From a virus, in IMG/VR virus record IMGVR_UViG_3300010392_001071, positions 1-36,629 of that record: a stretch of 36,629 nucleotides of DNA, one strand, 5' to 3'. The first letter of the stretch is position 1; each line of letters begins with the position of its first letter. Positions 1,030-34,844 of the stretch are shown piece by piece. The notes beneath the pieces are model-generated. The model saw only the letters and a program-made list of their open reading frames with translations. It ran no database searches and had not been told where the DNA came from. The translations under genes and the position numbers were made by a program.

Positions 1030-3263
1030 TGCCTAAAATAAAGATAAAAGACTGGAACGGTATAGTCACCAATATAGACCAAGTGGATGTTAAGCCAGAT
1101 ACTATAAAGGATAGCACTAACTTTAGGTTTAAGAAAGGTTATGCATCCTATGAATCAAGGCTTTTAACAGAGCTGGGACCACCTAACCTAGGCTTAGATT
1201 GGTCTCAAGGATTTACTTGGGAAACAGGTATATACTGTACCTTGACAAATGACCCATTAAATAATATAGATGATGAATTAGCTTGGAACAAAGAGGTTTT
1301 AGTTCTAATCGCTAAAGCTCTTGACAGCGGTACATATCACAGATTAATATATCTATATGATATTGAAGATGAAACTTGGGTGGAGCTTTCGCTTAAAAGC
1401 GCATATGGTATAGCTAATGATATATCTATAGAGAATCATGATGGAAACTTTAGCTTTGATGGTAGCGCCAGTCCTGAGCTACAAGGTTCGTTCTTTTCAA
1501 CCACAGTAGATGGTAAAGCTTTCTTCCAGGTGGAGAAGGGTACGCTTAAACTATACCTGCCTCATGATTGTTTTAAGATACAGTATATAAAAAGAAATCC
1601 CATATATGATAAGCTGAATCATAATGCTTGGTATATAGACAGATTAGTAGAACCTTATGACAAGGACCACAGATTAGTAAAAGTATATTATGACGGATTT
1701 GGATATTTAGACCAAGGGCATGTTCCTCCAGAAGGTACTCTTGTTGATAATGTTTCTTGTGCTACTGGCAGAAGGCTAGGGATAAAGTTTGCAGTGGAAA
1801 CTATCGATGACCAAGATGCTAATCTTGAAGAGATAGAGACAACATATACGCACTCTGGTTCATCGCCATGGTTTCGAGAGATAGATATGGATGCTGATTA
1901 CCAAAGAGCTTGGTATCTTTTTACATTTCTTTTCTATGACGCTGAAACAGGAGATAGTATTTCACCCAATGATGGAACAGGTGGTTGGTGGGATACTTAT
2001 ACACAGCTTCATCTAATTCCACCTTACAATGGGAACCCAATGGACCCAAATTTTTGGTGGTGCTATGAATCAGAAACTACAGGTTTCATGGTGATAGAAA
2101 GAACTTGGGCAGAAGTCTTAGAAGACTCAGATGGGAACACTTTAGCTGATATAGCTGTGTTTGGTAGCCATGAGATAAGGATAAGCAATGTAGAAGATTA
2201 TTATATCCATAACTCTTATAGAATACACTATACTGATTTTACTAACCGGACCTGGATATATAAAGGTAAGGCTTCAAAGATATCAGAAAGTGGTTTTGTC
2301 ACAGCTACAGATAAGAAATATAGTATTATCGCTACAGCTATTTTAGATGAGCGAGAAGAGATTATAATGGAGACCTATAATGGAGAGGCTAATGTAACCG
2401 CTGGTAAGGCTAAGTTTGCCCTTAGGATATGGAATATATATGTCCCAATAAATATAAATAAAAGGATAACAAGGGTTAGATTTTATCATAAGGTACGAAA
2501 TCTTGATGTTGATTATGTTTTACATAAGGAAATCGATTACCTTGATACTACTGATAACCCTGACGTTTATAACGAAACCTTTGATATGGCAGAGTTCACA
2601 AATACAGGGCTTACGCTATCTCAAAATATAGGATATCTAGTTGATTGGGAACATCCAGAAAGATATGATGTGTTAAGAGGATTCAAAAGCTTTACGACAG
2701 AATCAGATATAAGTGTTGGAATAACCAGCGGAGATACCGTGAACCTATTTCACTCTACAGTGGGTGGAGGTAGCCTTATGGCTGACCTAGTCTATGATGC
2801 AAGTAAGTTACCAATAACGGGAATAAGTAATATAAAAGCTCTAGCTAATATTAATGGTAAGATAGGTGCTTTCACTGATGAGAGACTATATGTAATAGCC
2901 TCAGGCGAAAGCTTAGGCCAGCTAATATTTACAGTAAATGATACACTAGATTTGGGTGTTAAGAACTTTAATGATATAGCCTCTATCCAAGGTGGAGCTA
3001 TTGCTAACACAAGAACTGGTATCTTTTATACTGATGGATATACGACACAACTATTATCAGAACCTATCAACGATATTGTTTCAGATAATTATGATACAAG
3101 CTCAATATACTATAACGCTTATAAGAGAGAGATTTACTTTAAGCCAACAAGCTCAGAAGACTTATGGCGATTTAGATTTGAGGATAAAGTTTGGGAGAAG
3201 ATAAATGCTACTATCGATGGGGGTGAAGCTGCACAAGCAGGTGAACCAGAGGTGGAGGAATAA
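1029..3263 (+). CDS. putative tail nozzle / packaged-DNA stabilisation protein
   Basis: A 744-residue protein. The opening IKIKDWNGIVTNIDQVDVKP followed by NFRFKKGYASYESR is the pattern I associate with P22 gp10-like stabilisation and T7 gp12-like tail-tube/nozzle proteins of short-tailed phages. The body is rich in aromatic residues and beta-prone repeats. Near the C-terminus (about 600-735) it has propeller-like strands such as GKIGAFTDERLYVI and GIFYTDGYTTQLL. It sits between a connector-like gene and a 139-residue protein that begins one base into its stop, so the set probably assembles together at the portal end. The exact family needs a profile or structure search. Confidence 0.55.
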   Translation: MPKIKIKDWNGIVTNIDQVDVKPDTIKDSTNFRFKKGYASYESRLLTELGPPNLGLDWSQGFTWETGIYCTLTNDPLNNIDDELAWNKEVLVLIAKALDSGTYHRLIYLYDIEDETWVELSLKSAYGIANDISIENHDGNFSFDGSASPELQGSFFSTTVDGKAFFQVEKGTLKLYLPHDCFKIQYIKRNPIYDKLNHNAWYIDRLVEPYDKDHRLVKVYYDGFGYLDQGHVPPEGTLVDNVSCATGRRLGIKFAVETIDDQDANLEEIETTYTHSGSSPWFREIDMDADYQRAWYLFTFLFYDAETGDSISPNDGTGGWWDTYTQLHLIPPYNGNPMDPNFWWCYESETTGFMVIERTWAEVLEDSDGNTLADIAVFGSHEIRISNVEDYYIHNSYRIHYTDFTNRTWIYKGKASKISESGFVTATDKKYSIIATAILDEREEIIMETYNGEANVTAGKAKFALRIWNIYVPININKRITRVRFYHKVRNLDVDYVLHKEIDYLDTTDNPDVYNETFDMAEFTNTGLTLSQNIGYLVDWEHPERYDVLRGFKSFTTESDISVGITSGDTVNLFHSTVGGGSLMADLVYDASKLPITGISNIKALANINGKIGAFTDERLYVIASGESLGQLIFTVNDTLDLGVKNFNDIASIQGGAIANTRTGIFYTDGYTTQLLSEPINDIVSDNYDTSSIYYNAYKREIYFKPTSSEDLWRFRFEDKVWEKINATIDGGEAAQAGEPEVEE

Positions 3264-3920: not shown

Positions 3921-4640
3921 ATGCCAGCATTTTTAATACCAGCAGCTATGGCAGTAGCTTCAGGAGTTGCGAGTATGATTTCTGAAAGCGCTAGGGCTGA
4001 AGAAGAAGCAAAGAAACGAGATGCAGCCAACAAACTGCTTGAACGTTCTATTATAGGTGAGGCTGAGCTTGGTAGAATGCTGAGGAGCCAAACCCGAATG
4101 TTCAATGCTCAGCTGCAGAACACAATAAATACTACAGCGATAAGAAGCTCAGGAATAGCTAACCAAGGAGTGGTAGGAGCTGCAGCAGCAGGTCAGGTTA
4201 AAGCAGCAGAAGGAGTTGCATTAGCTCAGACAGAACAACAAGTTGCAGATAGAAACGCAGAGATTAGAACTAAACAAGCTATGATTACTATGGGAGCAGA
4301 TACAGCTACCGACCCAGTTGGTTCTTTTGTTTCAGGTGGTATAAGCGGAGGGATAGCAGGAGCACAATTTGGAAGAACACTAGGGTTATTAAACAAGTTA
4401 CCTGAAGACCAATTCGCGATGCCAGCTGAAGGTGGAGCGGCTAACGTTGGGTCAAGTCCTGTTGGACCTCTTGCCCCAGAGACTAGTGTTGAAACGCCAT
4501 ATGTCGCAGGACCATTTGATGTTTCACAAAAACCTACTTTCGGGTTAAGTACAACACCTGGGCAGATGCAACCTGAAGAATTTACAGGTTATAATCCATA
4601 TAGTATATCTAATAAACCAAATCTTTGGATGAGGAGGTAA
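3921..4640 (+). CDS. putative internal virion (ejection) protein, T7 gp14-type
   Basis: A 239-residue protein with a good GAGGATGAT ribosome site. Residues 2-18 are a hydrophobic alanine-rich segment. A long helical Ala/Glu/Arg region follows (about 25-125; AEEEAKKRDAANKLLERSI), then a glycine-rich stretch SFVSGGISGGIAGAQFG (about 135-150) and a Pro/Gly tail. Short ejected virion proteins of podoviruses share this membrane-active helix, coiled helix and Gly-rich order. It is followed after one base by a second internal protein candidate and then by the giant protein, matching a three-gene ejection set. Confidence 0.5.
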   Translation: MPAFLIPAAMAVASGVASMISESARAEEEAKKRDAANKLLERSIIGEAELGRMLRSQTRMFNAQLQNTINTTAIRSSGIANQGVVGAAAAGQVKAAEGVALAQTEQQVADRNAEIRTKQAMITMGADTATDPVGSFVSGGISGGIAGAQFGRTLGLLNKLPEDQFAMPAEGGAANVGSSPVGPLAPETSVETPYVAGPFDVSQKPTFGLSTTPGQMQPEEFTGYNPYSISNKPNLWMRR

Positions 4641-4641
4641 C

Positions 4642-5967
4642 ATGCCAGGACAGATACCACAAGCATTAGGTGTTCTCAGTAAGTTTCTTGGTGAGGAGAA
4701 CTTAAGGCTCGAAAGAGAAATTAAGCAAGACAATATACGAAAAACAATAGAGCAGACGTCAGAACAGTTTGCCAGCTTAGGTCCGGATGCAAGCCAGCAA
4801 GATGTACGAAGCTTATATTATAAGTCTTTACAGAGTGCGACTCAGAATGAAGCTGAAGAGACAATTCCGTTTATCACCCAGATGTTTTCTCAATCTGCCA
4901 ACTTTGTTAGAGAGGAAAAGGCAGAGAGACAAGGCGATGAATATTCTCGTAGGGTAGAACAGATGACAGGATTAGAAGGTTTAGAAGAGCTTGGTCCTAA
5001 ATACGCTGGAGATGTAGCTGGTCTTGACGTTAGAACTACAAGATTTGTCACAAAGGTAGATGAAGAGGGAAGAGCTACTCTAAATGTATTTAAGTTTAGA
5101 GATGCACAGTTTAAGCAATTTGGTGACCCAATAGAGATAAGGTCATCTACCTTTGCGCAACGTGATAAACGTCGTAGCGGACAGTTTGCACCGAAAGGTT
5201 ACCAGCAAGGAGGTATCCAGTGGGAAAATACTATATCAGGAGAGCGTGGTTTTGCTATCTTCAATCCTACCACAGGGCTATATGAAAAACAGGTAGGGGC
5301 ACGGCGAGAGGCGCTTACTGAGTTTGATGTACTCAACCCTAAGGAGAGTCCACCAAGCCTAGAGAGAAAAAGAAATACTGATGATGCTGTTCTACAGCAA
5401 GAAGTTTATGAAAAACAGATGCAGCTACGTAGTCGTAATATTGCTAGGCAGCTAAAGGATGCTGGCTATGATATAGCAACTTCAGAATATCAAAACCTTG
5501 TATCTGGGAAGGTGCACCCTGGAGCTTATATTAAACTATTCGATGAACGACAGCAAATAGCTGACTTCATTACAACGATGCCTGCAGGTGCAGAGAGAGA
5601 TAAACTAAGACATGTATTTGGTCAGTTCACTAGAGCTGGTAGATTTTATGAACAGTCATCAGCTGAATTAGAAAGACATACTGGGCAATCTCCATTTAGA
5701 GATGAACCTGGTATTAGAGCTCCAGAACCAGAGCCTGTACGTCAGGTGAATGAAAGAGTTGCCACTGGAGTAGATGATATAATAGCTGGAGGTCCTCAAG
5801 GACCACAGGCTAATCAATATCACAAGCTTGCTAAGAGAGTCCAAGCAGACTTAGGGTATACGATGCATCTATTCCTACATAAGAGAGACCGTGGTCTCTT
5901 GACCTTTGATGAACAGCTAAAATGGCAAACGATATTATTTAATATAGAAGACAATCTGAAAGACTAA
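4642..5967 (+). CDS. putative internal virion protein
   Basis: A 441-residue, highly charged, mostly helical protein preceded by GAGGAGG, one base after the previous stop. It has a glutamine/glutamate-rich N-terminal half (EREIKQDNIRKTIEQTSEQF) and a middle beta segment with GGIQWENTISGERGFAIFN near 190-210, then more helix. There is no catalytic motif. Its position between a gp14-type protein and the giant ejected-type protein supports an internal-core role. The first 15 coding bases equal those of the gene at 280, although the proteins otherwise differ. Confidence 0.5.
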   Translation: MPGQIPQALGVLSKFLGEENLRLEREIKQDNIRKTIEQTSEQFASLGPDASQQDVRSLYYKSLQSATQNEAEETIPFITQMFSQSANFVREEKAERQGDEYSRRVEQMTGLEGLEELGPKYAGDVAGLDVRTTRFVTKVDEEGRATLNVFKFRDAQFKQFGDPIEIRSSTFAQRDKRRSGQFAPKGYQQGGIQWENTISGERGFAIFNPTTGLYEKQVGARREALTEFDVLNPKESPPSLERKRNTDDAVLQQEVYEKQMQLRSRNIARQLKDAGYDIATSEYQNLVSGKVHPGAYIKLFDERQQIADFITTMPAGAERDKLRHVFGQFTRAGRFYEQSSAELERHTGQSPFRDEPGIRAPEPEPVRQVNERVATGVDDIIAGGPQGPQANQYHKLAKRVQADLGYTMHLFLHKRDRGLLTFDEQLKWQTILFNIEDNLKD

Positions 5968-5968
5968 T

Positions 5969-8900
5969 ATGCCTCAAGATGATAAGAAAAAAGGATTAGC
6001 CATTGATTGGGATAAGGTTAATAAAGACCTTGCTCCATCTGATGAGCTGATGAATAATGTAGACTGGGGTGCTTTTGATGAAGAAACTGAAAGTACAATA
6101 ACAGCACCAGAAGAAGATTTTACCTATGAGCAGGTTCGTATACCCAATAAGAAAGGGACTACTTATCTATCAGATGAGTGGACATCGATACCGCTTGGCC
6201 CAGGTGGTGGTAATATAATAGTGCCTCCGCCAGAGGTACTTGGTAATTGGGCTAAAAGCTTTCTTGAGATGGGTATTAATGTTGCAGGAGGTGTTGCATC
6301 TGAACTTGAACAACTTGGTACTGACCCAGTAGGCTTTGCTGCTGATTGGGTTGAGTGGGGTGCTGATGCAGTAGATTTTGTTGGTCACCTACCGCAAAAG
6401 ATTTTTGATACTGAAACTGAAGAAGAAAAGAATATACAAAATACCAGACGGGCAATGTTTGATTATGTTGACCAACAGTTAGACTATCTCCCTGGCAGAA
6501 AAGAAAAGAAAGAACAATCCAGAAGAACAAGAGAACAAATACTTAAAGGTTCTGAATATCTTTCAGACCAGTTAGAAGACTTTATTCCTACTGACCCTAA
6601 TGGTGGCTTCTGGCAGAAAGACCTACCTGCAGGATTTGGTTCTATGACTGCATTTGTATTGGGAGCGATAGCGCTCAGAGGAAGGGTAAACCCTGCAATG
6701 ACATCTGCTCTTTTAGGAGCATATGCTGAAGGCTTTGGTTTAATGAGAGAAGCCTATGAGATAACAAACGATATAGATATCGCAACTGAGGTAGGGAAAA
6801 CAGGCAAGCTAATAGGTACATCAGAGGCTATACCAATATCTCGTATGTTCAGTAGATTTGAGAAACTGACTAATCCAGCGGCTAACAACTTACTTAAGAA
6901 AACGTTAAAGAAATATCTTGGTACAGTTGCTGGTAGAAGAATAGGTGAAGTAGGCATAGGCATGACCATCCAGGGTATGGAAGAAGCTATGCAGGAGATG
7001 GGGCAGCAATTTGCTAGTAATCTTACAGCTCAACAGATGTATGATTTTGCTAGAGATTTAAGTGAAGGCGTAGCAACAGGCGGAGCCGTAGGTCTTATAA
7101 CAGGCTCAGTAATGATGGGCTTAGGTTTTGGTGCGAGTCTATTAAAGCATGATATGACACCACAAGAACTTCAAGCTAAGCAAAAACTTTATCAAGAGAT
7201 AAGGTCTCAGCTTAACCCAGCCGTAGAGCAAGTGGAAGACTACGCTGAGGTAAAGGAGAATATGAATGCTATTTGGCATATGGGATTAGATGGCGCAGTA
7301 GATTTCGGTGGACAAAAAAATGAAGCAGATATAGCTAAAATTGAAGAGGGTAGAGAAGAGGAATTAGAGAAAGTTAAAGTGCGAAAACCTCTTGCTGAAC
7401 TTGAGGCAGACCTTGAACGTTTTTATGAAAGCCTTGAGAGACATCGAATAGCAGGACATGAGGACAAAGTTTTCCAAGTAGCCCAAAAGATAGCAGAGTG
7501 GGAACAGATTATAGCTCAAGTGAAAGAAGGTCAGGAGCCTAGGGGAGATGAGTTTGTAGAGGTTACTCCTCAAAAAGTATTAGACGAAGTTAATAAGAAA
7601 TATGATGATAAGATAAAGAATCTTCCTCCAGTCAATCCAGTTACGACAGAAGCTGATGTAAATGGTAGGGCTAATGTCCAAGGTGATTTTAGGGCTAATA
7701 TGAATGAAACGCTTAGATATTTAGATAAGCTAGAGAGCCCTAATGTTCTTGATGGTGTAATTAAGCTTGGACAATTGCTTATGGATTCGTATCTTAGTGG
7801 TGCTAATGTAACAAAGCAAACAGAGAAGTACTTTAACTTAGTCCTTGACCAAAAGATGTTAGCTAATCTGAAACCTGAAGTTATCCATGAGATGACTGAA
7901 GATTTATTCTATAGGGCAGCAGGAATAGCAGCAGGTGCAGGTATGGGAGCAGAGTTTAAGTCAATCTTAAAGAACTTTCCTGCAGCTTTGTTGAAAGAAG
8001 CAACGAGAGACTATACAGTAGCAACTCTTTTAGATTTCGGACCAGCTGCTTATGAATTATTGAATACTAAGTATCAGCAACTGGGAGCTGTAGTACAGGA
8101 GCTAACAGAAAAATCCCAGGAACTTAAGACATCGACGAAATATGGGCCCCTTCTTGGTAGAGCAGCTGGTTTGTTTACTACATCACTAACAACAATAACT
8201 GAAGCCTACAAAGAAGAGCGAGCTAAGAAAACATCTGAGCGTATACGTAAAGGCTTAGGTGTAGATAACAATGATATAAATTCAATACTTGAATCAGAAG
8301 AGGGAGCTGCTTCAGATGTATTGACAGCCGCTCAAGATGATATTGACCCTAATGAAAGGACTGCCCAAGATATAGCTGCTAGTACTGGCTATAAGTATGA
8401 GGGTATGTCACGAAACACTAAGCCTCAGAATAACCTCTATATGTTCACAGATAAGAGAACAGGTTCTACCTTCAGCTTTTTCCCTGCTCAATTAGATGAA
8501 GCGATAGTGAAAGAGAGAATGGCTAAGGAATATGCTGATTGGAAGAGGATAAACAAAGAGAAGATAAATAGACGATTTGAAGATGAGCCTTTCCCAGTAA
8601 AGAATGAAGCTCTTATAATTCAGTTACCTGAACAATTGATACAATCTATAACTAAAGAAGAATATGGAGAGCTTCAAGAGCTAGGTTACTTGCCTAAGAA
8701 CGATATGACTTTTGAGGATTTCCAGCGTAGAGAAAAAGGAGAATTTGTCACAGAGAATCTAGCATTCTTCCAGGAACAGTTTGATAAGAGATATACCGTC
8801 CCGATAAGAGCATATAAACCTAGGAGCGAACAGAGGGTGGGAGCCCTAAAGCAATTAGTTATAGAGCCAGGGCTATGGACTGAGTTTATAGATAAAGTTT

Positions 8901-11900
8901 TAGAAACTGAAAATGCAATAGCTCACATAACATCTGTAGAGGATATTGATTATACTGAGTTTGTAAACAATGCAGCTCATGAATTCTCTGAAGAAGTAAA
9001 AAGAGCTGAAGAGAGTGATGTCCATATACCTGTAGATGTAAGAGATAAGTGGAACTCAACTCCACTATTTACTGTCTTTATATTAGATAATGAGAATAAC
9101 GTTGGTAAGTTAAACTGGAATGCTGATTGGGCAGGCAAACGAGCTAGTACTCTCGAGAGACGTATGATGGAAGAGTTTAAGGGGTATGCAAGAACTTTCT
9201 ATGAAGAGTTCTATAAGCAAAGAGAAGAAGAAACAGGTCGACAGCAAACTATGCCTAAGGCTATGAATGTACAAGATTTAGAAGACCGACCTGGTTTACT
9301 GACCCTTTTCAAGAAGTTTGTAGCTGAGGTTTACCCTATAAGATGGGGCAGAATCCACTATAATATAAGAGATAAGCAAGAGTTTGAGCAAAATAAGGCT
9401 GAGAGAGGTGTTACTATTGAGCCTTATGGTTTTAGAGGAACCTTAAAGGACCCAGAGAAGTTTAATGTTACGTCCCATACAGTTGGTCTAACTGATTTTG
9501 ATATACCTATTGTATATGGTATGGAAGTAGGGACACATCGCTTTTATAGTGAAGACCTTGAGGAAACGGTAGGAGCTCCTAAGCTTGGTTGGTATGTAGT
9601 AGCAGAGGTTGAGTCGAAAGACCGTGCTGATGCAGAAGACTATACAATATTTTATCAGTACCAAAGTGACACTGTCCCTGAGGCAGCTGGTAAAGGAAAG
9701 CTTGGAGATGAACCTGCAAGGATATTAAACTGGATGGTGAGGATGGCTGGTCACGAAGATATGTCTAGAAGCCTAGATAGGTTACAGCATATAGGTGACC
9801 GCTCAGAGAAGGACGTACAAACAGCTAAGAACTCTAGGGTAGAAAGAGCTATCAATGACCTTAGCAATCAGCAATTAGGTATTAGCCAAGCAGCTAATTG
9901 GGTAGGCAGAATTGAAGACTTCATGAGTAAGTCTTTACATAATCTTCCCAAGATGAAAGCTGACCCGATATTTGATACAGGCTTCATAGAAGCTTTGAAC
10001 TCCTTGCGATTAACGTATGCTCCTCATATGAAACAATCAATCCCAGCGTTTGGTGCTATAGCAGGAGGTCTTGAATATTCAGGTTCAGTTTTACCGATAT
10101 ATCAAGGTATATATGAAGTTCTTAATGGGCTCAAAGGGGATAGCAAGGCGTTAACAGCTCTAAGAGAGGAGTATCTACAACAGCTAGAGAATCTAATTAC
10201 CACTGAGCTAAATCTTTATGGTGATAAAGCCAACAAAAAGGAAGAGATTAAAGCTATTTGGACGGTAAGGAAAAGGTTCCAAGAGCTAGAGAAGATAATG
10301 GATAATAAAAGAGCTGTTGTATGGACTGAGATTGTACGGAATACTTATCAAGCGATAAGTTTAGACAAAAGAAAATCTGAGTTGATAGCTCCAAGAGGTT
10401 TATTAGGTGGTGACGCTACAATCTTTATACCAGAAGATGCTGATGGAGGAAAGGAGATAAATAAGCTTAGAGAAGAGATGCAAAAGGAACTAGTCGATAA
10501 GTTTATAGCTACCCTTAGTGATAAAGACCATAAACGATTAGGTGAAATATGGGCAGAATTCAGGAGAGATAAAGCTTTAATGTTTGCTTTACATCATGGT
10601 GTCCAATTCCAAACAGATAGCTTTGAAACCTTTGTTTTAGGTATCGCTACCGAAATGGTAGCAGAGCCAGGCACATCAGATGTACGTGTAGGTCGCAGAA
10701 TAGCAGAAAAAGAAGTTAATATACCAGTAACGATGAGAGACCCGATACGTTTAGGTCAGCGTTTACTTTCTCCTTCTGGGACATTTGGTAAGATATCAGG
10801 TAGAACTGGTAACTTCATCGATAAGATAGCGACTATGACACCAAACTTTAAGAAAGAGGGAAGTAGATTTGAGCACTCAAGGGCTCCTAAGTCACCTTGG
10901 ATTCTATTAGACCAAGCTAAATCGTTTGACATAGAAGCTTTAATGGGCAAATATGAAGTTGTTAAGGATGATATAGAGAACTTTCAGAGAGTATTAGAAT
11001 TTTATGCAGCTACTTGGAAAAGAATATATGACTATTTTGGACCTACATTAGAGAAAACTAGAGAGCTTAATACTTTATCTATGGATATAATAAATAAGAT
11101 GAAAGGGATAGCTCTCCCTGAGGAAAGTAATCCATTCCTTGCAACCTTAGATGTAGTTGATATGGATGCTAATGATTCTATCCAAGAGGTAACAGAAAAA
11201 CTAAAGCTAAAGCCTGCCCAGGTCGCAGCTATAGAAGAGATACAGGCCTTAAAGCAGTCATATGTAAGCAAGATGGAGAAGATGCTTAGCAGTCAAGGGG
11301 ATATAGGGAAGATGAAGCAAGACGTTAAAGCTCTGTCAGATATGTTTGATGTCTGGTTTGAGAAATCTGTTAACCACTCTCTCTGGTATGCTAAAGAAGT
11401 CCTTGGAAAAAATATAGTATATCTTCCTACAGATGACTGGGCAAGGATGACTGAGTATGGGACGAAGACACATAGATTATATAGAACTGATGCTAATGGA
11501 CCCTTCATGGTAGGCATGAGGAGAGCTCAGCGTAAGCTGAAGCCGAAGGCTAAAGGCGCGCCAGCAGTAAAGATTGAGCTAGTGCAGCCTGAGTTTACTA
11601 CAGCTAAGCTATGGAAAGTTGACCTTACAAACTACGATACCTCTGAGGGTATGGCTAGATTTGAAGATACTCCAGAAGAAGATAGACTTCCAGCTCAAGG
11701 GCCTACAGTTGGGAAAGCTATAGCACGCTATGTTAGCGGTAAGCAATATGAGGATACTATATCAGGGTTATACCAATATCTTAAAGATAATGATATGATT
11801 GACGATGAGTTTGCCTTCTTAGAAAAGAGTCTTCTCCGAAGTGTCGGAGACGTTACCCTTAAGGTACAAGATATTTACTACAATGGCAAGCGAAAAAGAG

Positions 11901-14900
11901 GTGCCTTTGAATGGGAATCAGATTATTCTAACAGATGGGTTGTGATTAACCCTGAATCTACGCTTATAGATAAAAATCAAATCTTTAGAACTTTATTGCA
12001 TGAAAGTATACATGTCTTTACTCTTGAAGCTTTAGAGAAAGGAGCGAGAGACCCGAACTCTAAGGAAGGTAGGTTCTATTCTAGGGTTGATAACATGCGG
12101 CGATATGTTAAAGACGTTCTAGATGGTAATAAAGATAAGAACATATCTCGATATAGAAGCCCTGAATTTAATGCTAAAGACGCTGCAGCTTTAGCTAAGG
12201 TGCTTGATACTATAGCCGCAGACCCTTATCTACAGAACAAGATGAACCATATCAAAAGTGATAACGCTGAGTTCTTATCTTATATCTTATCTGCTGATTT
12301 AGATATCTTAAGTGTACTTAATGATATCGTCTTTATAAAGCCAGATGGTTCTGGTAAGAAGAAGTCAATGTTCAGAGAGTGGATGGAAGCTATAGCTGAA
12401 TACTTAGCTAGTGCTTTAGGTATAACGCTTAAAGAAGACTCTGTTCTCCAGGCTGTCTTTGAGATGATGAAAGATTTTGAGCTTGACCTTATCGACTACC
12501 AATTTCAGCGAAAGAGAGGGGTAATAGATAGTGGTCTAGTAGATAAGAAATATAGAAGAATGTATGGATATCATCTGAACGAAGATGGTAATGTCCAAGA
12601 TGAGAAATTGATAGATGATTTAGACTGGGGTCAAGAAGATGATGACCAGGGAGAACAAGAATCTGTTCGTGAACAGAATATGGTACAGAGTTTCAGTCAG
12701 TTTGTAGCTGATGTGCTTGATGTTGACCTTAGGACATTATATAAAACTTTAGGTGAGACTAAGGTTGCTCAATTTGAGAAACAGCTGGAAGCAATCAATA
12801 CAGCTGAAGATGGTTTGATAGAGGATAGACTTAAAGCTTTACATAAGAGAAGATACAAAACTTATGTAAGCGATTATGATGAGTTCAAGAGGAGTATGAT
12901 TACCCGCTTGCTTAACAGAGCACAAGAGGTAAGCAATAAGCCTATGTACTCACTTGCTACTGTGTATGAAGGAAAGAAATCCTTTATGAGAATGATTCCC
13001 CTTGGCGATATGCACAAAGATGCAACTGGAAAGAACTCAACAACTCTCCATGAGGATATGGTAATAGAAGAGTTTATACCTTTCCTTGAGGAGATGTTAG
13101 GATTACAAGAAGGTGACCTTGGTATATCTTTAATAAAGACATTTGATACTTATCAGAAGCACAAAGCTGGAAGGAAGAGAGTAGCTTCCTCTAATATATC
13201 TAGACTTGGAGATTGGAATGTAGCGAAAGAAGAGGCAGATGGTGATAGTATGTCTGCATTTTTATCTCGCGTAATAGCTGATGCAAAGGATAAGGTTAAC
13301 GATAGAAGATTCATATATCTTGGTAGCTTTGCTGATAAGAATACCTTACCTGTACTCACTGTCCATAAAGATAACTATGAGAAGCTAATGACAGCCATTG
13401 GTCCATTCAGAAGTATCTATAAAGAGTTCGTTGACCAGATGGAAGATGTTACCTATGACCCACTCCATAAAGGTATAGATGAAGTATCAGGGGTACTTAG
13501 AGCTTTATTAGAGGATATGTGGTTTGGTGTAGACTTCTCTAAACCTGGCTTCCAGAGTAAGGTTATAAGAGAAGATTGGAAATCTGTCCAGAAGCGTGGG
13601 ACTAAATGGGTATACAGCAAGAAGGCTATACAAGAGGATTGGGACCACGTTAAAGACTTATTTGAAGGCTCTCGTCAGACAACAGGTATCACCTATAATG
13701 AAGAGACTCGTAAGATACAGGTTCGATTAGGTATTATAAATACAACAGGTGTTGAGGGGCAATCGATAGAGATTGATGGAGAGCTTTATGATTTAGATGC
13801 TCTCTTAAGGAACAGCTTAGATGGTACGTCTAGATTAGACGGAGCTTCATTTTATATATTAGGAGATTTTGATACCGTATATCATAGAGTATATGGGACT
13901 ATTAAGCAAGGAGCTCTAAAGAATGTCTTATCCTCAGGCTTTGGAGATAGGAATAGACCTTATTTTATTAAGCATGCTATGCATGGTGTACATCCAAATG
14001 ACCCATTAGCTAAATGGATGAGAAGAAATAATCTTTCAGTTCTCACTGCAGATGAGTCAGCTAAAGTTTCTCCAGCTAATGCTCTTAGCTTAGCACAACT
14101 AAGCGCTCCACAAGAGTTTTATAAGAGAATAGAAGAAGATGTAATGGTAATACCTTTATCTTCTTTCCATAGGTATAAGGAAGAACAAAACGTTTCCTTC
14201 ATGTCAGGTAAAAGCAGGCAGGCCTGGAATGGTTCAGGTTTTATAGTGGCTAACCCAGCTGTTATGGCAGCTGACCCGACAGGTTCTTTTAATGGTGATA
14301 TCTTGACATTGATGAGGAATATTGTTACCTTATGGGTGGAACAAAATATTGGTGATGGAATAGAAAACCAAGGCTATACTTTAGATGAAGCCTTGGATGA
14401 TATACGCACTATAGTTACCGAACCTTCCTCCCCTAAAGAAGAAGAAATTGCAGAGATTTTATCGCCGCTCGTCCAAATGAAGGACGAAGAGGCTAAGCAA
14501 AAATATAGAAATGTATTTCATCACACACTGTTCTCAAACCAACTTAATAATAAGCTACGTAATAGGTTAGCTGATGTCCTCCAAATGGTACTCCCAGGCG
14601 CTAGGGTCGCTCTTGGCCCTAATGCCGGAGTACTAGCTAAGAAATCTCAGGTAGAACCTGTTACTGCTGATGGCGCTTTAAGATGGCACCTTACCTCGCT
14701 TTCCCTAACTGACGAAGCATTCGTCGAGGCTCTCGGCAACGAAGAGCTTCGTACTCTTATATCTAATCTTAGAGAACTACAAAGAAGAAGAACTTTAGCA
14801 GATGCTAAGGGTAATATTGATGAGCTTAATCTAAGAGCTGATGAGATAGACGCGACTTACAATACTATGGCTACCATCATAAAGGAAGAGCTTAAGAAGG

Positions 14901-17900
14901 ACATAGATAACGAGACAACTATCAAATACAGAGCTTTCTTGAGAACAGGTAGAGCTGAGACCCTCGTCTCTATGACTGGGGAGAAGGTTAAGGCTTGGAA
15001 AAATAAGCAAGTAGCTAAAATGTTAGATGAAAATGGTATGCTTAAAGATGGCTATACCATTATCACTAGAGATGTAGCTGCTAAATATGGTATTAAGCCA
15101 GGGGATAGGGTACTCGCTGTTGTCACACCTACAGATTCAGCTCTATCTATTGCAGCTGTAACTGTAGCAGGAGTTGTACCTTCATTTGGACAGGGTAAAG
15201 CTTCAGAGTATAGTAAGGCTATATTTAATAGTGAGTATATCCAGTCAATGGTAGGTAAAGATTTTGATATTGATACGATATCTCTTATTCCTTTTGACCC
15301 AGATTACTGGACTGCTAAGCAGTTTAACAATGTCTTAGATGTAGTAGCTAAGTCTAAAGAGGAATACATTAAGAATATGGTATCTACTGTTCAGGGACTT
15401 TTTGATTCAAAAGCAGCTGAGCTTTTAAGATTACCTGGCTCTGTAGATGCTAGTGGTAATATCATAGAGGTAAATAGGAAGACTGTATTCACCGATGAAG
15501 TTAGAATACTATTTGCACAGCTTATGAATGGAGAGCGTAAAGGTTTATCTAAACCTAGGTATGTAGTAATTGGAAATGACTTTCACTATATCAATGATGC
15601 TTACGTAAGTGATGTGTCTAAGATTATAAACGAAAGGCTATACCACTCAGCGCTCAGTGCAATCGGTATGTCCTCAACGATAGAGATGCCACTCTTTGAT
15701 GCTGCAGGTAATGTTATAGAGATGAAGACTATAAAGATGGACACTCGACATAAGAGTTGGTTCAGAACTCATATGCTTCATCTTATAATGACTAACCATA
15801 TTGTAGATTTCCCTAATAATACATCTATGCTAAGCTATGAAGCTGACCTAGCTAACCCTGATGTACAAGAGACAATGTTCGGACATATGTGGGGTTTAAG
15901 TGATGCTCAGCTAGATTTACTAGAGCCTGTACATGTTAGAGCTCTTAATGAAATGACTAGGTTATTTTTTGATAAAGCTTTTAGGTTAGCTAAGATACAG
16001 GCACAGGATGGTAATACAGCTACCCATTTTGAGCTTATCCAGGGGGTTGAAGACCAGAAGAGAATTCTTGGCATGTTCCAGAGAGGTGACAAAGAAGGTT
16101 TATATAAGCTGTACGAAGACCAGTTAGACAAAGAGCTTGCATCTGCTTCAGCAAAACAGAGTACAACTGAAGATGAAATAGAGATTATGGAAACGGAGAA
16201 TCTCAAGAAGAAGACAATAGTCCAGGCTTTCATTGAAAATATGAAGTTAGCAGATAGCGTATATGAATATCCATTGTTCGGTCTTATTGCTGCTATCCCT
16301 GCTGTAGTAGGTCCACACTATGGGCAGACACAGAAAGAGGCGCTAAGGACTGAAGTTGAGGTAGGTATGACGATGGCTTATACTTCACCTAGATTTGCTG
16401 AGATGATAGATGATATCCTTAGTAAGGCTAGGAAAGGTTCTAAGATATTTACTTATTTCAGAGATAAGAATACTAACAATGTCTATGAGTCCTTTAGCAC
16501 AGAGGAGGGAGAAGTACATGCTGATGTAGGCTCTATAGCTTTATCTTTATTAGCTTTCGAACAAGATTACAGAAGAAACAGAGGCTATGAGAGACCGCTA
16601 GAGAGACTACGTAGAGCAGCTGTTGCAATGGTCCATGCTATAGATGAGGTAGATAGAAGATATGACCAGGGTGTTACTGGCGATAGAGAGATGAATGAAG
16701 AGGCTAGAGCTAAGACATTCCCTGCGTTATTTGAAAAGATTTTAGAAAAAGACTTTGTCACTATTCAAAGTGCAAAGCGTGAGATTGAACTTAAGACTGA
16801 CAAAGGAATAATGAAGCTTACCGTTGATTCTAAAGGTCAGTTGTTTATAACAAGTGAGGATGGTGAACTCACCATGACTCCAGATAACATTCTCAGAGGG
16901 GAATCACCTGAAGCTTTGAGGGCACGTAACTTACTAATAGAGCGCCATGGAGTATGGGAAAAACAACTAAACCGTAAGCGCTTGTCACAGTTTCTGAAGT
17001 TCCCCGAGAATGTTTCTCTTGACGATAGACGAGAGCTATTAGAACAATTTTTAATAGATGAACTTTACAGCGGTAAGTATGATATAGAAGATGTGAGAGC
17101 TTTTTGGTTATCTCTAATAGGACAGGTAACAAATAATGGTTTGAAAGATAAGAGAGCTTTTAACTTACAGGTTAATAGAGCAGAGATGAATCCAGAGAAG
17201 CCATACACATATCAGTATAACGATATGCTTCTCACTGTAATGGCTAAGTTTGAGCCTGGTATGCTAGAATCATATCTATTCCATTTCAATAACATTCAAG
17301 ATAAGTATGGTAGGGTCCAGACACATAAGGTTATTGGTGCTCTTCAGCAAGGAGAGACAGGGAATTCTAATATCGTTTTCCAAGATGAAGATGATGTGGT
17401 TCCAGAACCAGCTAGATTATTAACAGATGTATTCTATGAGCACTTAAAGAATTTTGATAATGGTTTCTTTAGGTCTAATGAATATAAAAAGTTTAAGAAA
17501 TTGATAAGAGATAAAGGATATGCAGCAGGACATACTGAGCTGCGGAGACTCTATAGAGATATCTCTGTGGTTATGACCATGAGCGATAATGGTTTTATAA
17601 TAGATGAAGTCCTAAGAGATATCAATACTCTTTCAGCTCCAGCTTTTAAGAACAAATATGCGAAAATGGTTTCCTCTGAAATTATTCGAACGTTTAATGG
17701 ATATGAAGTGAGGGCAGGTCAGTCTTTAGATAGAGCGGTTGAGCTTGACCCAAGTGAAGCTGCTTTACGACAGCTTTTTTATCTACACTTTAAGGCTAAG
17801 AAACAATATGAAAGAGCTAGCAAGTTACCAGTAGGTGTAGTCGCTGGTTTCCTCCAGGATGAGATATATGCTCCTTGGAGAGAGAAGAAAACGTATACCT

Positions 17901-20900
17901 TTGTTGATGAAGATGAGACAATTGGTTATGGTATGAGGGTAGGTAGTCGTCAACCTCAAGCGCTTACAAAGCGCAGGGTTGGCATCAGATATAAGGTATT
18001 ACCTAATACTAATCCTGAGATGGTAGGTGAAGCTTCATTAGTTATTAAGAAGGCTGAAGATATAGATAGAGTCCTTAACTTACATAAAGAGGAAATGTCT
18101 TTACATCTTGAAAACCTTGAGAATTTCATATCGATAATGAGAGACACGAAGAAACGGGACGAGTACAGAACAGACAAAACACGGGACCCAGAACTTGTCG
18201 CCCTTTTAACCTCAGTAGATGATATCAAAATACCTGAGACTTTACTACGGAAGATGATATTTGATTTAGCAGAAAATATGGCAGCTAAGCTAGGCATCCG
18301 TGTAGTCCAGAGCAACAAACCAGGGCAATGGTTATATACACATACAGAGAGTAGAACTCCATTCAAGACTTTAACCCAGCTATTAGAAGAGCAGTTTGCT
18401 GACAGGAGTGACCAGTTTAAGTTAATGATTGTTGCAGCTGTAGAATATAGAAAAATGTATGATTTTAGAGCACGAGAAATTGTTATTACTTCTCTAAACT
18501 ATTTGAAACAGTTGTATACTCAAATTAGTAGCGATATAAGTAGTATCAATGAAGGTGCAAGATATATAGCAAATGCTATAGATACTTATGAAGGTTATCT
18601 GAAAGCTATAGATGAACAGATAGGAAACTATATGCCTCACAGATATCCAATGCACGTTTATGAAGAGATGTGGAAACACCAGAATGCTAGGTCTATAAGG
18701 CAAGGACTAAGGGCACAGAGACAAGCCCATCAGAAGCAACGTAAGAATAGAATCCCAGGTTGGGACCCTCGTATAGCCGATAGAACTGATAAGCAAATAG
18801 AGAGTATTGTAGAGGAAAGGCTTACTAGTGCGTGGAACCGATTAGAGAAGGGACCTATGAGCACATCATTTATCCCCAACTTTCAGAAGAGAAAAGTTGA
18901 TGACCCTAATGTAAACTATGCGAAATCAAGCACTAGACCTCATACGGATTACACCTATCGGCTTGTAGAGGGAACGAAAAGCGATTTACTATTAGCTGAT
19001 TGGTTCTTGTTTGAGCACTTAGCTAGGATGAAGGGTGAGAATATAGCTGTAATCAATTCAATTAAGCACTGGTTCGCTGCACAGCTTAGCAATAAGATAC
19101 TTCATACTAGAAAGAGAAAGCTTAAAAATGTTAAGAAAGGTATGCACATATCGTTCCTTATCCCAGGTCAATGGGTAAACGAGGAGGATGAGATACCAGT
19201 AAGAGCTGAGCTAAGAGTTTCTGGGATAGTAAGAAAGGTTACTTCTGACCGAGTATATCTACACGTTGACCCAAGTAAAGCAGTAGCAGAAGCTATAAGA
19301 AGGACAGAAGTATATGATAATATTTATAAGTCTATTGGTGATATTCCTGGTGAAGTGCCTGCTACAGCTGGTCAGCTTAAGTATTTACAGGAATTGGTTA
19401 ATGATGGTTACGCTGACCCGCTTACACAAGAAGAATATGAAACGTTGACGTTACAGCAGGCTAACACTAAGATTAGGAAGACCCTCAGCGATGCTGTTAA
19501 GAACCCAGATAAACTTGGTTCGTTTAGAAGAGACCAGGTGTATACTAGAGATATAGATGGAACTAAGCTTAAAGATATGTCTGATAGATATCTTAGAAAT
19601 GGTTCCTCTGAGTTCTTAGAAGGTAAAGCTAGAGAAGTCAGGAACATGAAGCTTATACAAGGATATTGGGACCATCCAGTCTTTGATACCTTACACTATG
19701 GTACGCTTAAGCTAGCTGGTAAGGGCTTAAGCTTATTAGCTAAGACCTATCAGAGAACAATGGGTTGGTTAATCCTTGCGCTATGGAATGCTCCTAAAGC
19801 TTTGTCGAGAAACCTTGTGGGATTACTTATATCTAATCTCTCTCACATGCCATTCAGGGCTACTAAGAGGATGGTACGTGGAACATTTGAATATCTACAT
19901 CTACGAGATGCGAGGATAGACAGATTAGATGAAGGCCAAAGGCTGATAATGAATACTCTTTCTTCGCTCTCACTTGCACGTACAACCTCTGTTGTTAAGC
20001 TCACATTAGGTTCGCTTAACCTTAATAGAGAAGAGCTGTTGGTACATAAAAAGTGGTATCAAAAGGTAAGCTCAGCTTTCAAGCTATTCAATAATGCAAC
20101 AGGATATTCTAAGTTTGTTAAGGAGCTGCGTAGGCTTAACAAGAAGTTACGCCAAACAAAAGCTGGCAAGCAATCTAATGTTAGGCAAGAGATTAGGATT
20201 TTGAAACAAGCTTGGAGAAATAAGATAGAGAATATCTATGATGGCGAAGAGATGGACATGTCAGATATAGATGCTACTCTTAAGCAACTCGAAGGTGTTG
20301 ACCCTGATAAGTTAAAGATTAATGAAGCAGCAGAACTTGGTATCACCCAGAAGAAGGCGTTAATGACCTTTGGCAAAACTGTATTTGAAACACTATATGA
20401 AGGTTTCCCAGCTGGTATAAAGGTTCAGGCTCTCGCTGAGTACGGACGTATACCTGCATTCTTCACAGGTCTCAAATTAGCTGAGCATAATAACCATGCT
20501 ATTGACCTAGAGGACGGTATACAATATGCAATTAACTATGTAGAAGCGTTCAATGCTTTCTATAATCCAAAGAACAAACAAAGATATTCAAATACCAAGA
20601 TGGGTAAAGCTTATCTACAGTTTACCCAGTACCCGATGACCTTGATTATGACTAACCTAAGGATGATACAAGAGGCTATCGTTCAAGGTATAGGGGTAAC
20701 AAGTGGCGGATTAAAAGGTAAGCTTGAAGCTCTTAAGCTATTAGTTGGAAAAGATATAACTTCAGCTAAAGAGATTAGTAAACATCTTGAAGATAAAGGA
20801 TATGCTTCTAGGGCAGATGTAAATCTGATAAGGGCAACCTTTGTTAGGATAATGTCAAACATGGTAGCTTGGCAGATAGGTACCGCTGGGACTATTATGG

Positions 20901-21493
20901 GGCTACAATATGTAGCAGACCCATTTGTCCAGACTATATTAGGAACGCTTGATATGATGGCTGATGTATGGCCACATATAACAGGTGATGACGATGACGA
21001 TGAGAGGCTTAAGAGAGAAATCATAGAAGGTACATATGAGATTCTTTTCTGGGCAGGTGTACCATTTAAGCAAGGCGTACAAGTTGCTCTCAGACCAGAC
21101 CAAAACTCCATAATAGATGCGTTAATGCAAGGAAGAATTGCTTCGCAGTTTGGTACTTTGGATAGAGTCGTCAATACAATTAAGGTATTAGCAGATAGCG
21201 AAGAGCTAACACCTAAGCAAAGAAAGAAAGTTTTCTCTCCTAGTACAGCTTGGTTCTGGGATAACTTTATATTAGGATTTGGATTATTTGGTCCAAAGAA
21301 ATATAGTCCAGAGGAAACTGATTGGACCAGAAATAGCTACTTCTTAGGTGAGGAGGACTTAACTTTCCCACCAGCTGAAGGGCTATACGATGAAGACCGT
21401 CCTTGGAATACAGCATTAGATAGACTGAGGATGCTAATAATGAACCCTCACAGAGGGATTGTGCCGTTAGGCCATAAAATATTCAAACCATAA
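5969..21493 (+). CDS. giant polyvalent virion protein with RNA polymerase-like core and HExxH peptidase motif
   Basis: One uninterrupted frame of 5174 residues, 42% of the window. The N-terminus has Ala/Gly-rich hydrophobic segments (about 218-245 and 365-395) with the EEAMQEMGQQFASN pattern seen in phage ejection proteins, then charged helices (430-560). A zinc-peptidase motif HESIH is at 2011-2015, with a possible third ligand E2101. An RNA-polymerase-like core follows in order: SFADKNTLP at 2453, DGASF at 2624, ESAKV with K2699, SGKSRQ at 2746-2751, GDRV at 3045, and DFDID at 3098-3102, the metal-binding signature of single-chain two-barrel polymerases (crAss-like virion polymerase, YonO). 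The C-terminal third contains NYMPHRYP (about 4220) and hydrophobic helices (about 4870-5000), resembling large polyvalent protein domains. Inferred role: a packaged, ejected protein that transcribes early genes and perhaps processes itself. The start has only a weak ribosome site. Confidence 0.7.
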   Translation: MPQDDKKKGLAIDWDKVNKDLAPSDELMNNVDWGAFDEETESTITAPEEDFTYEQVRIPNKKGTTYLSDEWTSIPLGPGGGNIIVPPPEVLGNWAKSFLEMGINVAGGVASELEQLGTDPVGFAADWVEWGADAVDFVGHLPQKIFDTETEEEKNIQNTRRAMFDYVDQQLDYLPGRKEKKEQSRRTREQILKGSEYLSDQLEDFIPTDPNGGFWQKDLPAGFGSMTAFVLGAIALRGRVNPAMTSALLGAYAEGFGLMREAYEITNDIDIATEVGKTGKLIGTSEAIPISRMFSRFEKLTNPAANNLLKKTLKKYLGTVAGRRIGEVGIGMTIQGMEEAMQEMGQQFASNLTAQQMYDFARDLSEGVATGGAVGLITGSVMMGLGFGASLLKHDMTPQELQAKQKLYQEIRSQLNPAVEQVEDYAEVKENMNAIWHMGLDGAVDFGGQKNEADIAKIEEGREEELEKVKVRKPLAELEADLERFYESLERHRIAGHEDKVFQVAQKIAEWEQIIAQVKEGQEPRGDEFVEVTPQKVLDEVNKKYDDKIKNLPPVNPVTTEADVNGRANVQGDFRANMNETLRYLDKLESPNVLDGVIKLGQLLMDSYLSGANVTKQTEKYFNLVLDQKMLANLKPEVIHEMTEDLFYRAAGIAAGAGMGAEFKSILKNFPAALLKEATRDYTVATLLDFGPAAYELLNTKYQQLGAVVQELTEKSQELKTSTKYGPLLGRAAGLFTTSLTTITEAYKEERAKKTSERIRKGLGVDNNDINSILESEEGAASDVLTAAQDDIDPNERTAQDIAASTGYKYEGMSRNTKPQNNLYMFTDKRTGSTFSFFPAQLDEAIVKERMAKEYADWKRINKEKINRRFEDEPFPVKNEALIIQLPEQLIQSITKEEYGELQELGYLPKNDMTFEDFQRREKGEFVTENLAFFQEQFDKRYTVPIRAYKPRSEQRVGALKQLVIEPGLWTEFIDKVLETENAIAHITSVEDIDYTEFVNNAAHEFSEEVKRAEESDVHIPVDVRDKWNSTPLFTVFILDNENNVGKLNWNADWAGKRASTLERRMMEEFKGYARTFYEEFYKQREEETGRQQTMPKAMNVQDLEDRPGLLTLFKKFVAEVYPIRWGRIHYNIRDKQEFEQNKAERGVTIEPYGFRGTLKDPEKFNVTSHTVGLTDFDIPIVYGMEVGTHRFYSEDLEETVGAPKLGWYVVAEVESKDRADAEDYTIFYQYQSDTVPEAAGKGKLGDEPARILNWMVRMAGHEDMSRSLDRLQHIGDRSEKDVQTAKNSRVERAINDLSNQQLGISQAANWVGRIEDFMSKSLHNLPKMKADPIFDTGFIEALNSLRLTYAPHMKQSIPAFGAIAGGLEYSGSVLPIYQGIYEVLNGLKGDSKALTALREEYLQQLENLITTELNLYGDKANKKEEIKAIWTVRKRFQELEKIMDNKRAVVWTEIVRNTYQAISLDKRKSELIAPRGLLGGDATIFIPEDADGGKEINKLREEMQKELVDKFIATLSDKDHKRLGEIWAEFRRDKALMFALHHGVQFQTDSFETFVLGIATEMVAEPGTSDVRVGRRIAEKEVNIPVTMRDPIRLGQRLLSPSGTFGKISGRTGNFIDKIATMTPNFKKEGSRFEHSRAPKSPWILLDQAKSFDIEALMGKYEVVKDDIENFQRVLEFYAATWKRIYDYFGPTLEKTRELNTLSMDIINKMKGIALPEESNPFLATLDVVDMDANDSIQEVTEKLKLKPAQVAAIEEIQALKQSYVSKMEKMLSSQGDIGKMKQDVKALSDMFDVWFEKSVNHSLWYAKEVLGKNIVYLPTDDWARMTEYGTKTHRLYRTDANGPFMVGMRRAQRKLKPKAKGAPAVKIELVQPEFTTAKLWKVDLTNYDTSEGMARFEDTPEEDRLPAQGPTVGKAIARYVSGKQYEDTISGLYQYLKDNDMIDDEFAFLEKSLLRSVGDVTLKVQDIYYNGKRKRGAFEWESDYSNRWVVINPESTLIDKNQIFRTLLHESIHVFTLEALEKGARDPNSKEGRFYSRVDNMRRYVKDVLDGNKDKNISRYRSPEFNAKDAAALAKVLDTIAADPYLQNKMNHIKSDNAEFLSYILSADLDILSVLNDIVFIKPDGSGKKKSMFREWMEAIAEYLASALGITLKEDSVLQAVFEMMKDFELDLIDYQFQRKRGVIDSGLVDKKYRRMYGYHLNEDGNVQDEKLIDDLDWGQEDDDQGEQESVREQNMVQSFSQFVADVLDVDLRTLYKTLGETKVAQFEKQLEAINTAEDGLIEDRLKALHKRRYKTYVSDYDEFKRSMITRLLNRAQEVSNKPMYSLATVYEGKKSFMRMIPLGDMHKDATGKNSTTLHEDMVIEEFIPFLEEMLGLQEGDLGISLIKTFDTYQKHKAGRKRVASSNISRLGDWNVAKEEADGDSMSAFLSRVIADAKDKVNDRRFIYLGSFADKNTLPVLTVHKDNYEKLMTAIGPFRSIYKEFVDQMEDVTYDPLHKGIDEVSGVLRALLEDMWFGVDFSKPGFQSKVIREDWKSVQKRGTKWVYSKKAIQEDWDHVKDLFEGSRQTTGITYNEETRKIQVRLGIINTTGVEGQSIEIDGELYDLDALLRNSLDGTSRLDGASFYILGDFDTVYHRVYGTIKQGALKNVLSSGFGDRNRPYFIKHAMHGVHPNDPLAKWMRRNNLSVLTADESAKVSPANALSLAQLSAPQEFYKRIEEDVMVIPLSSFHRYKEEQNVSFMSGKSRQAWNGSGFIVANPAVMAADPTGSFNGDILTLMRNIVTLWVEQNIGDGIENQGYTLDEALDDIRTIVTEPSSPKEEEIAEILSPLVQMKDEEAKQKYRNVFHHTLFSNQLNNKLRNRLADVLQMVLPGARVALGPNAGVLAKKSQVEPVTADGALRWHLTSLSLTDEAFVEALGNEELRTLISNLRELQRRRTLADAKGNIDELNLRADEIDATYNTMATIIKEELKKDIDNETTIKYRAFLRTGRAETLVSMTGEKVKAWKNKQVAKMLDENGMLKDGYTIITRDVAAKYGIKPGDRVLAVVTPTDSALSIAAVTVAGVVPSFGQGKASEYSKAIFNSEYIQSMVGKDFDIDTISLIPFDPDYWTAKQFNNVLDVVAKSKEEYIKNMVSTVQGLFDSKAAELLRLPGSVDASGNIIEVNRKTVFTDEVRILFAQLMNGERKGLSKPRYVVIGNDFHYINDAYVSDVSKIINERLYHSALSAIGMSSTIEMPLFDAAGNVIEMKTIKMDTRHKSWFRTHMLHLIMTNHIVDFPNNTSMLSYEADLANPDVQETMFGHMWGLSDAQLDLLEPVHVRALNEMTRLFFDKAFRLAKIQAQDGNTATHFELIQGVEDQKRILGMFQRGDKEGLYKLYEDQLDKELASASAKQSTTEDEIEIMETENLKKKTIVQAFIENMKLADSVYEYPLFGLIAAIPAVVGPHYGQTQKEALRTEVEVGMTMAYTSPRFAEMIDDILSKARKGSKIFTYFRDKNTNNVYESFSTEEGEVHADVGSIALSLLAFEQDYRRNRGYERPLERLRRAAVAMVHAIDEVDRRYDQGVTGDREMNEEARAKTFPALFEKILEKDFVTIQSAKREIELKTDKGIMKLTVDSKGQLFITSEDGELTMTPDNILRGESPEALRARNLLIERHGVWEKQLNRKRLSQFLKFPENVSLDDRRELLEQFLIDELYSGKYDIEDVRAFWLSLIGQVTNNGLKDKRAFNLQVNRAEMNPEKPYTYQYNDMLLTVMAKFEPGMLESYLFHFNNIQDKYGRVQTHKVIGALQQGETGNSNIVFQDEDDVVPEPARLLTDVFYEHLKNFDNGFFRSNEYKKFKKLIRDKGYAAGHTELRRLYRDISVVMTMSDNGFIIDEVLRDINTLSAPAFKNKYAKMVSSEIIRTFNGYEVRAGQSLDRAVELDPSEAALRQLFYLHFKAKKQYERASKLPVGVVAGFLQDEIYAPWREKKTYTFVDEDETIGYGMRVGSRQPQALTKRRVGIRYKVLPNTNPEMVGEASLVIKKAEDIDRVLNLHKEEMSLHLENLENFISIMRDTKKRDEYRTDKTRDPELVALLTSVDDIKIPETLLRKMIFDLAENMAAKLGIRVVQSNKPGQWLYTHTESRTPFKTLTQLLEEQFADRSDQFKLMIVAAVEYRKMYDFRAREIVITSLNYLKQLYTQISSDISSINEGARYIANAIDTYEGYLKAIDEQIGNYMPHRYPMHVYEEMWKHQNARSIRQGLRAQRQAHQKQRKNRIPGWDPRIADRTDKQIESIVEERLTSAWNRLEKGPMSTSFIPNFQKRKVDDPNVNYAKSSTRPHTDYTYRLVEGTKSDLLLADWFLFEHLARMKGENIAVINSIKHWFAAQLSNKILHTRKRKLKNVKKGMHISFLIPGQWVNEEDEIPVRAELRVSGIVRKVTSDRVYLHVDPSKAVAEAIRRTEVYDNIYKSIGDIPGEVPATAGQLKYLQELVNDGYADPLTQEEYETLTLQQANTKIRKTLSDAVKNPDKLGSFRRDQVYTRDIDGTKLKDMSDRYLRNGSSEFLEGKAREVRNMKLIQGYWDHPVFDTLHYGTLKLAGKGLSLLAKTYQRTMGWLILALWNAPKALSRNLVGLLISNLSHMPFRATKRMVRGTFEYLHLRDARIDRLDEGQRLIMNTLSSLSLARTTSVVKLTLGSLNLNREELLVHKKWYQKVSSAFKLFNNATGYSKFVKELRRLNKKLRQTKAGKQSNVRQEIRILKQAWRNKIENIYDGEEMDMSDIDATLKQLEGVDPDKLKINEAAELGITQKKALMTFGKTVFETLYEGFPAGIKVQALAEYGRIPAFFTGLKLAEHNNHAIDLEDGIQYAINYVEAFNAFYNPKNKQRYSNTKMGKAYLQFTQYPMTLIMTNLRMIQEAIVQGIGVTSGGLKGKLEALKLLVGKDITSAKEISKHLEDKGYASRADVNLIRATFVRIMSNMVAWQIGTAGTIMGLQYVADPFVQTILGTLDMMADVWPHITGDDDDDERLKREIIEGTYEILFWAGVPFKQGVQVALRPDQNSIIDALMQGRIASQFGTLDRVVNTIKVLADSEELTPKQRKKVFSPSTAWFWDNFILGFGLFGPKKYSPEETDWTRNSYFLGEEDLTFPPAEGLYDEDRPWNTALDRLRMLIMNPHRGIVPLGHKIFKP

Positions 21494-24225: not shown

Positions 24226-24514
24226 GAAAGAAAAGAAACCGACGAAGTCGGCGGCAAAGCCGAAAAAGGAAGTGGTTGAAGAGATAATACCTGAAAATGC
24301 TATTACTTCAGCAACTGATTTAGGGCTAAAATTTGAAAAGGTTAATCTTAGAGACCTTAACGATATATATGTAGCGATAACTAGTCAAACATTTACCTTA
24401 GATAGTAAAGAATATGCGGGAAAAGAATACTATCTAGTAATGCTTAATGATGGTCAATTATTTGCAGTACAGAAAACATTTTTCAAAATTATTGCACAGA
24501 TAATGCCAACATGA
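24215..24514 (+). CDS. small basic-tailed protein upstream of terminase
   Basis: A 99-residue protein; ATG 24215 is preferred because AAGGATAAAGAC precedes it, while an in-frame ATG at 24197 lacks a site. The N-terminus is a Lys/Pro/Ala-rich tail (KKEKKPTKSAAKPKKEVVEE); the rest is a small alpha/beta domain with YYLVMLNDGQLFAVQKTFFKI. The stop overlaps the large terminase start (ATGA). The position is that of a small terminase in many phages, but the size and lack of an HTH make that weak; a terminase partner is possible. Confidence 0.5.
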   Translation: MPTKKEKKPTKSAAKPKKEVVEEIIPENAITSATDLGLKFEKVNLRDLNDIYVAITSQTFTLDSKEYAGKEYYLVMLNDGQLFAVQKTFFKIIAQIMPT

Positions 24515-34679: not shown

Positions 34680-34691
34680 AAGTACGACGCC
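34680..34691 (-). promoter_or_regulatory. 12-bp phage promoter-like element, copy C
   Basis: GGCGTCGTACTT on the minus strand, 37 bases before GTG 34642. An AT box TTTTATTAG lies upstream and an AT-rich run with TTAATTAAT lies downstream, before AAGGAG. It is identical to copies at 35050 and 36588. Confidence 0.55.
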
Positions 34692-34833: not shown

Positions 34834-34844
34834 CGTGTAAATAC

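Follow-up and report, generated by a model that had tools for sequence, protein, structure and literature searches.

A giant putative ejection protein with a predicted two-barrel RNA polymerase core from an uncultured phage

Introduction

Giant virion chains carrying two-barrel RNA polymerases (RNAPs) have been described from crAss-like phages (PMC7886860) and from Thermus phage P23-45, in which gp96 is a tape-measure-fused virion RNAP of 5,002 aa (PDB 8h2m; PMC10770324). Coliphage N4 gp50 provides a further point of reference, its N-terminal domain being membrane-associated (PMC12633501). The present analysis concerns a 36,629-nucleotide stretch of viral DNA (IMG/VR record IMGVR_UViG_3300010392_001071; hereafter the window), in which an initial annotation had proposed an RNAP-like core, along with ejection and peptidase modules, in one very long chain. 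On the evidence assembled here, this giant protein is likely a virion (ejection) protein with a central, single-chain, two-barrel DNA-dependent RNA polymerase, an enzyme that shares its basic fold with cellular RNA polymerase.

The giant gene, its modules and its relatives

The giant open reading frame (ORF), which encodes a putative ejected virion protein with a predicted RNA polymerase, was confirmed at 5969-21493 (plus strand), with an ATG start and a product of 5174 aa (about 572 kDa). Near its N-terminus, residues 272-417 (6782..7219, plus strand) match the N4 virion RNAP family PHROG 2206 (E 1.1e-8), and BLASTP against N4 gp50, as a single comparison, gave an alignment at gp50 343-432 (E 5e-5); a membrane-helix-like stretch (residues 374-392) lies within this segment. 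Assignment of the protein to the N4-like (T7-type) virion RNAPs was considered and rejected, as only residues 272-417 match PHROG 2206 or gp50 and the polymerase domain of gp50 finds no counterpart; a T7-type polymerase domain likewise gave no match in the giant protein. Further along the chain are a zincin-like metallopeptidase site (11999..12271, plus strand; H2011-E-x-x-H2015 with E2101 as candidate third ligand), a conserved segment around SFADK upstream of the barrels (residues 2449-2474; 13313..13390, plus strand), the predicted B barrel (beta-subunit-like, residues about 2601-2760; 13769..14248, plus strand) and the predicted A barrel (beta-prime-like, residues about 3029-3130; 15053..15358, plus strand), with the DFDID codons at 15260-15274 (plus strand). 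The C-terminal region (residues 3500-5174; 16466..21490, plus strand) shows a weak match to PHROG 11358 at residues 4819-4901.

A degenerate DNA pattern for GKDFDID retrieved 21 stretches from IMG/VR contigs, three of which proved to carry genuine homologues (tblastn E-values between 1e-131 and 1e-26). All three belong to uncultured phage contigs, namely G001 (58 kb; giant protein of 4008 aa), G002 (32 kb; 4433 aa) and G003 (59 kb; 4349 aa), and their giant proteins are only 21-33% identical to that of the window. The terminase, tail-type genes and early genes are common to the window and the three relatives, the late-gene neighbourhood is the same, and the terminases of G003, G002 and G001 are 60, 61 and 42% identical, respectively, to that of the window. 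Searches with alignments of the core and of the terminase recovered the same three relatives from IMG/VR viral contigs with no further members, and none from GTDB genome contigs, while single-protein searches for related loci (core, terminase and A-barrel stretch) found nothing. No close relatives of the family were found among 50,697 phage records, and Pfam, PDB sequence and tblastn searches of phage and plasmid records gave no relevant match over the polymerase core. DnaB-like helicase genes and a PHROG 156 portal occur in the relatives (L044 in G003, L046/L047 in G001); tblastn of the G003 portal gave no match in phage records at E 1e-3, nor did two tail-type proteins of the window match phage records by tblastn.

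The C-terminal region is conserved in all four homologues. The peptidase module anticipated in the initial annotation is borne out by comparison within the family, since the HExxH residues (H2011, E and H2015) as well as E2101 are invariant across the four giant homologues; HExxH with a conserved glutamate looks like a zincin site.

Gene neighbourhood and probable virion association

The giant gene belongs to a late operon that also includes genes for lysis and the terminase, the endolysin and terminase genes lying downstream of it. Immediately upstream, two smaller genes could, by position and composition, encode further ejection proteins: a candidate small ejection protein of 239 aa (3921..4640, plus strand), Ala/Gly-rich with a hydrophobic N-terminus and T7 gp14-like by composition only, and a candidate second ejection protein of 441 aa (4642..5967, plus strand), which lies directly before the giant gene with synteny in G002 and G003. 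The terminase large subunit (24511-26439) belongs to the PHROG 38 family, and its best matches among phage records are the fecal phage contig MT838800, Faecalibacterium phage Mushu and B3-like Pseudomonas phages (25-27% identity).

From the late-operon position, the N4-like N-terminus and the zincin site we infer that the giant protein is packaged in the virion and ejected. An alternative is that the two-barrel polymerase is made after infection and acts as a non-virion enzyme without being ejected; such enzymes do exist in phages, P23-45 gp64 being an example (PMC10770324). Nevertheless, the late operon shared with lysis and terminase genes, the N4-like N-terminus, the zincin site and the single chain of 5174 aa are all typical of ejected proteins, and a non-virion role is accordingly considered unlikely.

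Several other features were observed. An RNase H-like protein is encoded in the early region at 35652-36092 (minus strand; PHROG 531, E 1e-15), and a tRNA match of 48.5 bits (Rfam) lies at 34711-34833 (minus strand), its anticodon loop containing an insertion of about 47 bases; ARAGORN reports tRNA-Val(aac) with an intron here if introns are allowed, and otherwise none. An exact 12-base motif, GGCGTCGTACTT, occurs in three copies, all on the minus strand and in gaps between genes (34680-34691, 35050-35061 and 36588-36599), two of the three being about 40-45 bases before early ORFs. This motif is a candidate promoter for a phage polymerase; it is not present in the three relatives, which thus lend the promoter idea no support. 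Just 3' of one copy, the 216-base gap at 34834-35049 (minus strand) has an unusually good predicted fold (z -3.6, with none of 200 shuffles as good) closed by an 11-bp helix; no Rfam family matched it and no similar DNA was found in the three relatives.

Conservation of the predicted polymerase core

The motifs on which the initial annotation was built were found at the positions given there, i.e., SFADK at 2453, DGAS at 2624, SGKSRQ at 2746, GDRV at 3045, VTPTDSALSIAAVTVAGVVP at 3052 and DFDID at 3098; for ESAKV, the lysine K2699 was correctly placed and only the start had to be moved, from 2697 to 2696. On its own, the DxDxD pattern is at chance level, with shuffled copies of the protein containing 1.7 on average and the real protein two. 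Since it is expected by chance in so long a protein, the motif needed independent support, and it is the conservation across homologues that raises DFDID above chance: VGKDFDID, which contains it, is invariant in all four giant homologues. Moreover, across all reading frames of at least 150 codons, D[FYLV]D[GIV]D occurs once and only once per genome in the four genomes, always in the giant protein; by this motif no second two-barrel polymerase was found elsewhere in the four genomes, the contigs of which may be incomplete.

Invariant columns of the four-way alignment peak at residues 2601-2700 (14 columns) and 3001-3100 (13 columns), as compared to 0-11 per 100 residues elsewhere. Within the B barrel, the invariant positions include D2624-G2625 (of DGAS), K2651, K2668, M2684, K2699 and Q2751 (of SGKSRQ), while those of the A barrel include P3054 and V3095-D3102, covering G3096 and the three aspartates D3098, D3100 and D3102; N3087-S-E3089 is a further feature of this barrel. 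Y2450, G2452, F2454, N2458 and T2459, in the segment around SFADK, are invariant as well. K2748, put forward earlier as an alternative catalytic lysine, is not conserved in the four homologues and was ruled out.

Relationship to two-barrel RNA polymerases

The profile-profile search proposed for the core was carried out with residues 2390-3490 as the hhalign query against a profile of phi14:2 gp66 and 12 other crAss-like virion RNAPs, and the matches were limited to the two barrel segments. The B-barrel segment scored a probability of 93% (E 2.8e-7) and the A-barrel segment 68%; with an 80-sequence profile the latter rose to 76% and the B barrel scored lower (62% for residues 2590-2760). Both segments align with the expected portions of the profile and in the expected order, and among 50 sliding segments of 200 residues only those over the two barrels exceeded 1.5% with either profile.

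For a comparison of individual columns, 75 crAss-type loci from IMG/VR were added and aligned in three MAFFT modes. The residues invariant in the giant family fall in columns that are nearly universal among these RNAPs, i.e., K2651 (75/79), K2668 (76/79, or 77/79 in one of the three modes), M2684 (72/79), K2699 (78/79) as well as P3054, G3096 and the aspartates (each 79/79), and the final alignment, of 78 sequences, shows no exception at K2699, P3054, G3096, D3098, D3100 or D3102. The spacing from the methionine to the lysine is 15 residues in the giant protein and in crAss-type RNAPs alike. Furthermore, BLASTP against P23-45 gp96, as a single comparison, aligns exactly the DFDGD barrel of that protein (E 0.006).

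Structure prediction with AlphaFold2 from the four family members alone was of low confidence (pLDDT 42), and Foldseek of this model placed p97-N, aspartate decarboxylase and P23-45 gp96 among the top matches (E 0.05-0.3), the first two of which are double-psi-barrel proteins. A second model (residues 2585-3180) reached pLDDT 66, with about 80 for the A barrel, and returned mainly RNAPs (including 7s01, 8h2m and 6vr4) together with double-psi barrels, none at E <0.1; as crAss sequences were added to its input, this model does not count as separate evidence for homology. Neither model gave a match at E <0.001 or returned the B barrel as a separate barrel, and a Foldseek search of viral structures with the low-confidence model yielded noise.

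Taken together, the family conservation, the profile matches confined to the barrels, the columns shared with 75 RNAPs and the structural matches to double-psi barrels and RNAPs uphold the two-barrel single-chain core of the initial annotation, in which DFDID belongs to one barrel and K2699 to its partner. Evidence at the level of sequence thus supports ORF 5969-21493 as encoding the two halves of a single-chain RNA polymerase of the two-barrel type. The RxP arginine, which hardly varies among the 75 crAss-type RNAPs, is replaced by V3052 in the window and by valine or alanine in the three relatives; because this arginine is absent, the giant protein is filed with two-barrel RNAPs at large instead of the crAss family. 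In E. coli the corresponding beta-prime residue, R425, contacts the incoming nucleotide. After the A barrel, no profile match to a bridge helix or trigger loop was obtained for residues 3110-3330, with a weak IG-type motif near G3247.

These two departures, V or A in place of the RxP arginine in all four members and no bridge helix/trigger loop detected by profile, could be read as signs that the fold is a packaged relic that no longer makes RNA and has a structural or DNA-binding role, or that its substrate has changed. However, the three aspartates and the B-barrel lysines remain invariant in four homologues at 21-33% identity, which one would not expect if the enzyme were dead, and this reading is judged improbable, marginally more so than a non-virion role. 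That the DxDxD motif and the lysines are mere coincidences in an ordinary giant ejection or tape protein is very improbable in view of the peaks in conservation, the profile matches specific to the two barrels and the columns shared with crAss RNAPs, even though a DxDxD is expected about 1.7 times at this size and composition.

Proposed mechanism

In the preferred reading, that of an ejected two-barrel polymerase, the N4 vRNAP-like segment and the products of the small genes next to it would make up, or become part of, a channel through the host envelope, by analogy with N4 gp50, crAss-like gp66 and P23-45 gp96, and the zincin domain may process the giant chain or act on host proteins. The B barrel would supply K2668 and K2699, and the A barrel D3098, D3100 and D3102, which by their conservation and homology are predicted to hold the catalytic Mg2+. 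By the same analogy, the polymerase could then transcribe the first phage genes as the DNA enters, without the host enzyme. Host-independent early transcription, promoter use and catalysis are attributed to the giant protein by such analogy. A bolder proposal, which we hold to be doubtful, is that phages belonging neither to Crassvirales nor to the P23-45 group put a two-barrel polymerase, instead of a T7-type one, into an N4-style ejection protein with an N4-like membrane segment and a zincin, and that this polymerase, without the RxP arginine, selects nucleotides differently and uses a promoter of its own, GGCGTCGTACTT.

Comparison with known systems

P23-45 gp96 and the window protein, the latter a putative virion protein, are both giant chains in which a two-barrel RNAP is combined with a metallopeptidase, and the A barrels align directly (AAKxGxKxGD...NxEY...GxDFDxDT). 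The polymerase of gp96 is N-terminal (DFDGD at 779), whereas that of the window protein is central (3098); moreover, gp96 keeps the RxP arginine (FRNP) where the window has V3052, and P23-45 is, in difference to the window phage, listed as long-tailed. phi14:2 gp66 and the other Crassvirales virion RNAPs (PDB 6vr4) share with the window protein the barrel order, DFDID and the K..M..K of the B barrel, and several of them are themselves giants (about 4,000-4,900 aa); identity is only about 11-18%, and the RxP arginine is absent from the window protein. Coliphage N4 gp50 is similar in its N-terminal segment, zincin HExxH module, giant chain and ejection-protein neighbourhood, but its polymerase is T7-like (single-subunit family) and precedes the zincin module, while that of the window protein is two-barrel and follows it.

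Compared with the known two-barrel virion giants, the window protein probably stands for another lineage; its modules follow a different order and its N-terminus is N4-like. It indicates that two-barrel RNAPs joined to giant, probably ejected proteins are not confined to the crAss-like phages and P23-45 of Thermus. The divergent active site, devoid of the RxP arginine, provides a test case for the residues that a two-barrel polymerase truly needs, and the joining of an N4-like ejection segment to a polymerase of another type than that of N4 points to different phages having slotted unrelated polymerases into the same delivery chassis.
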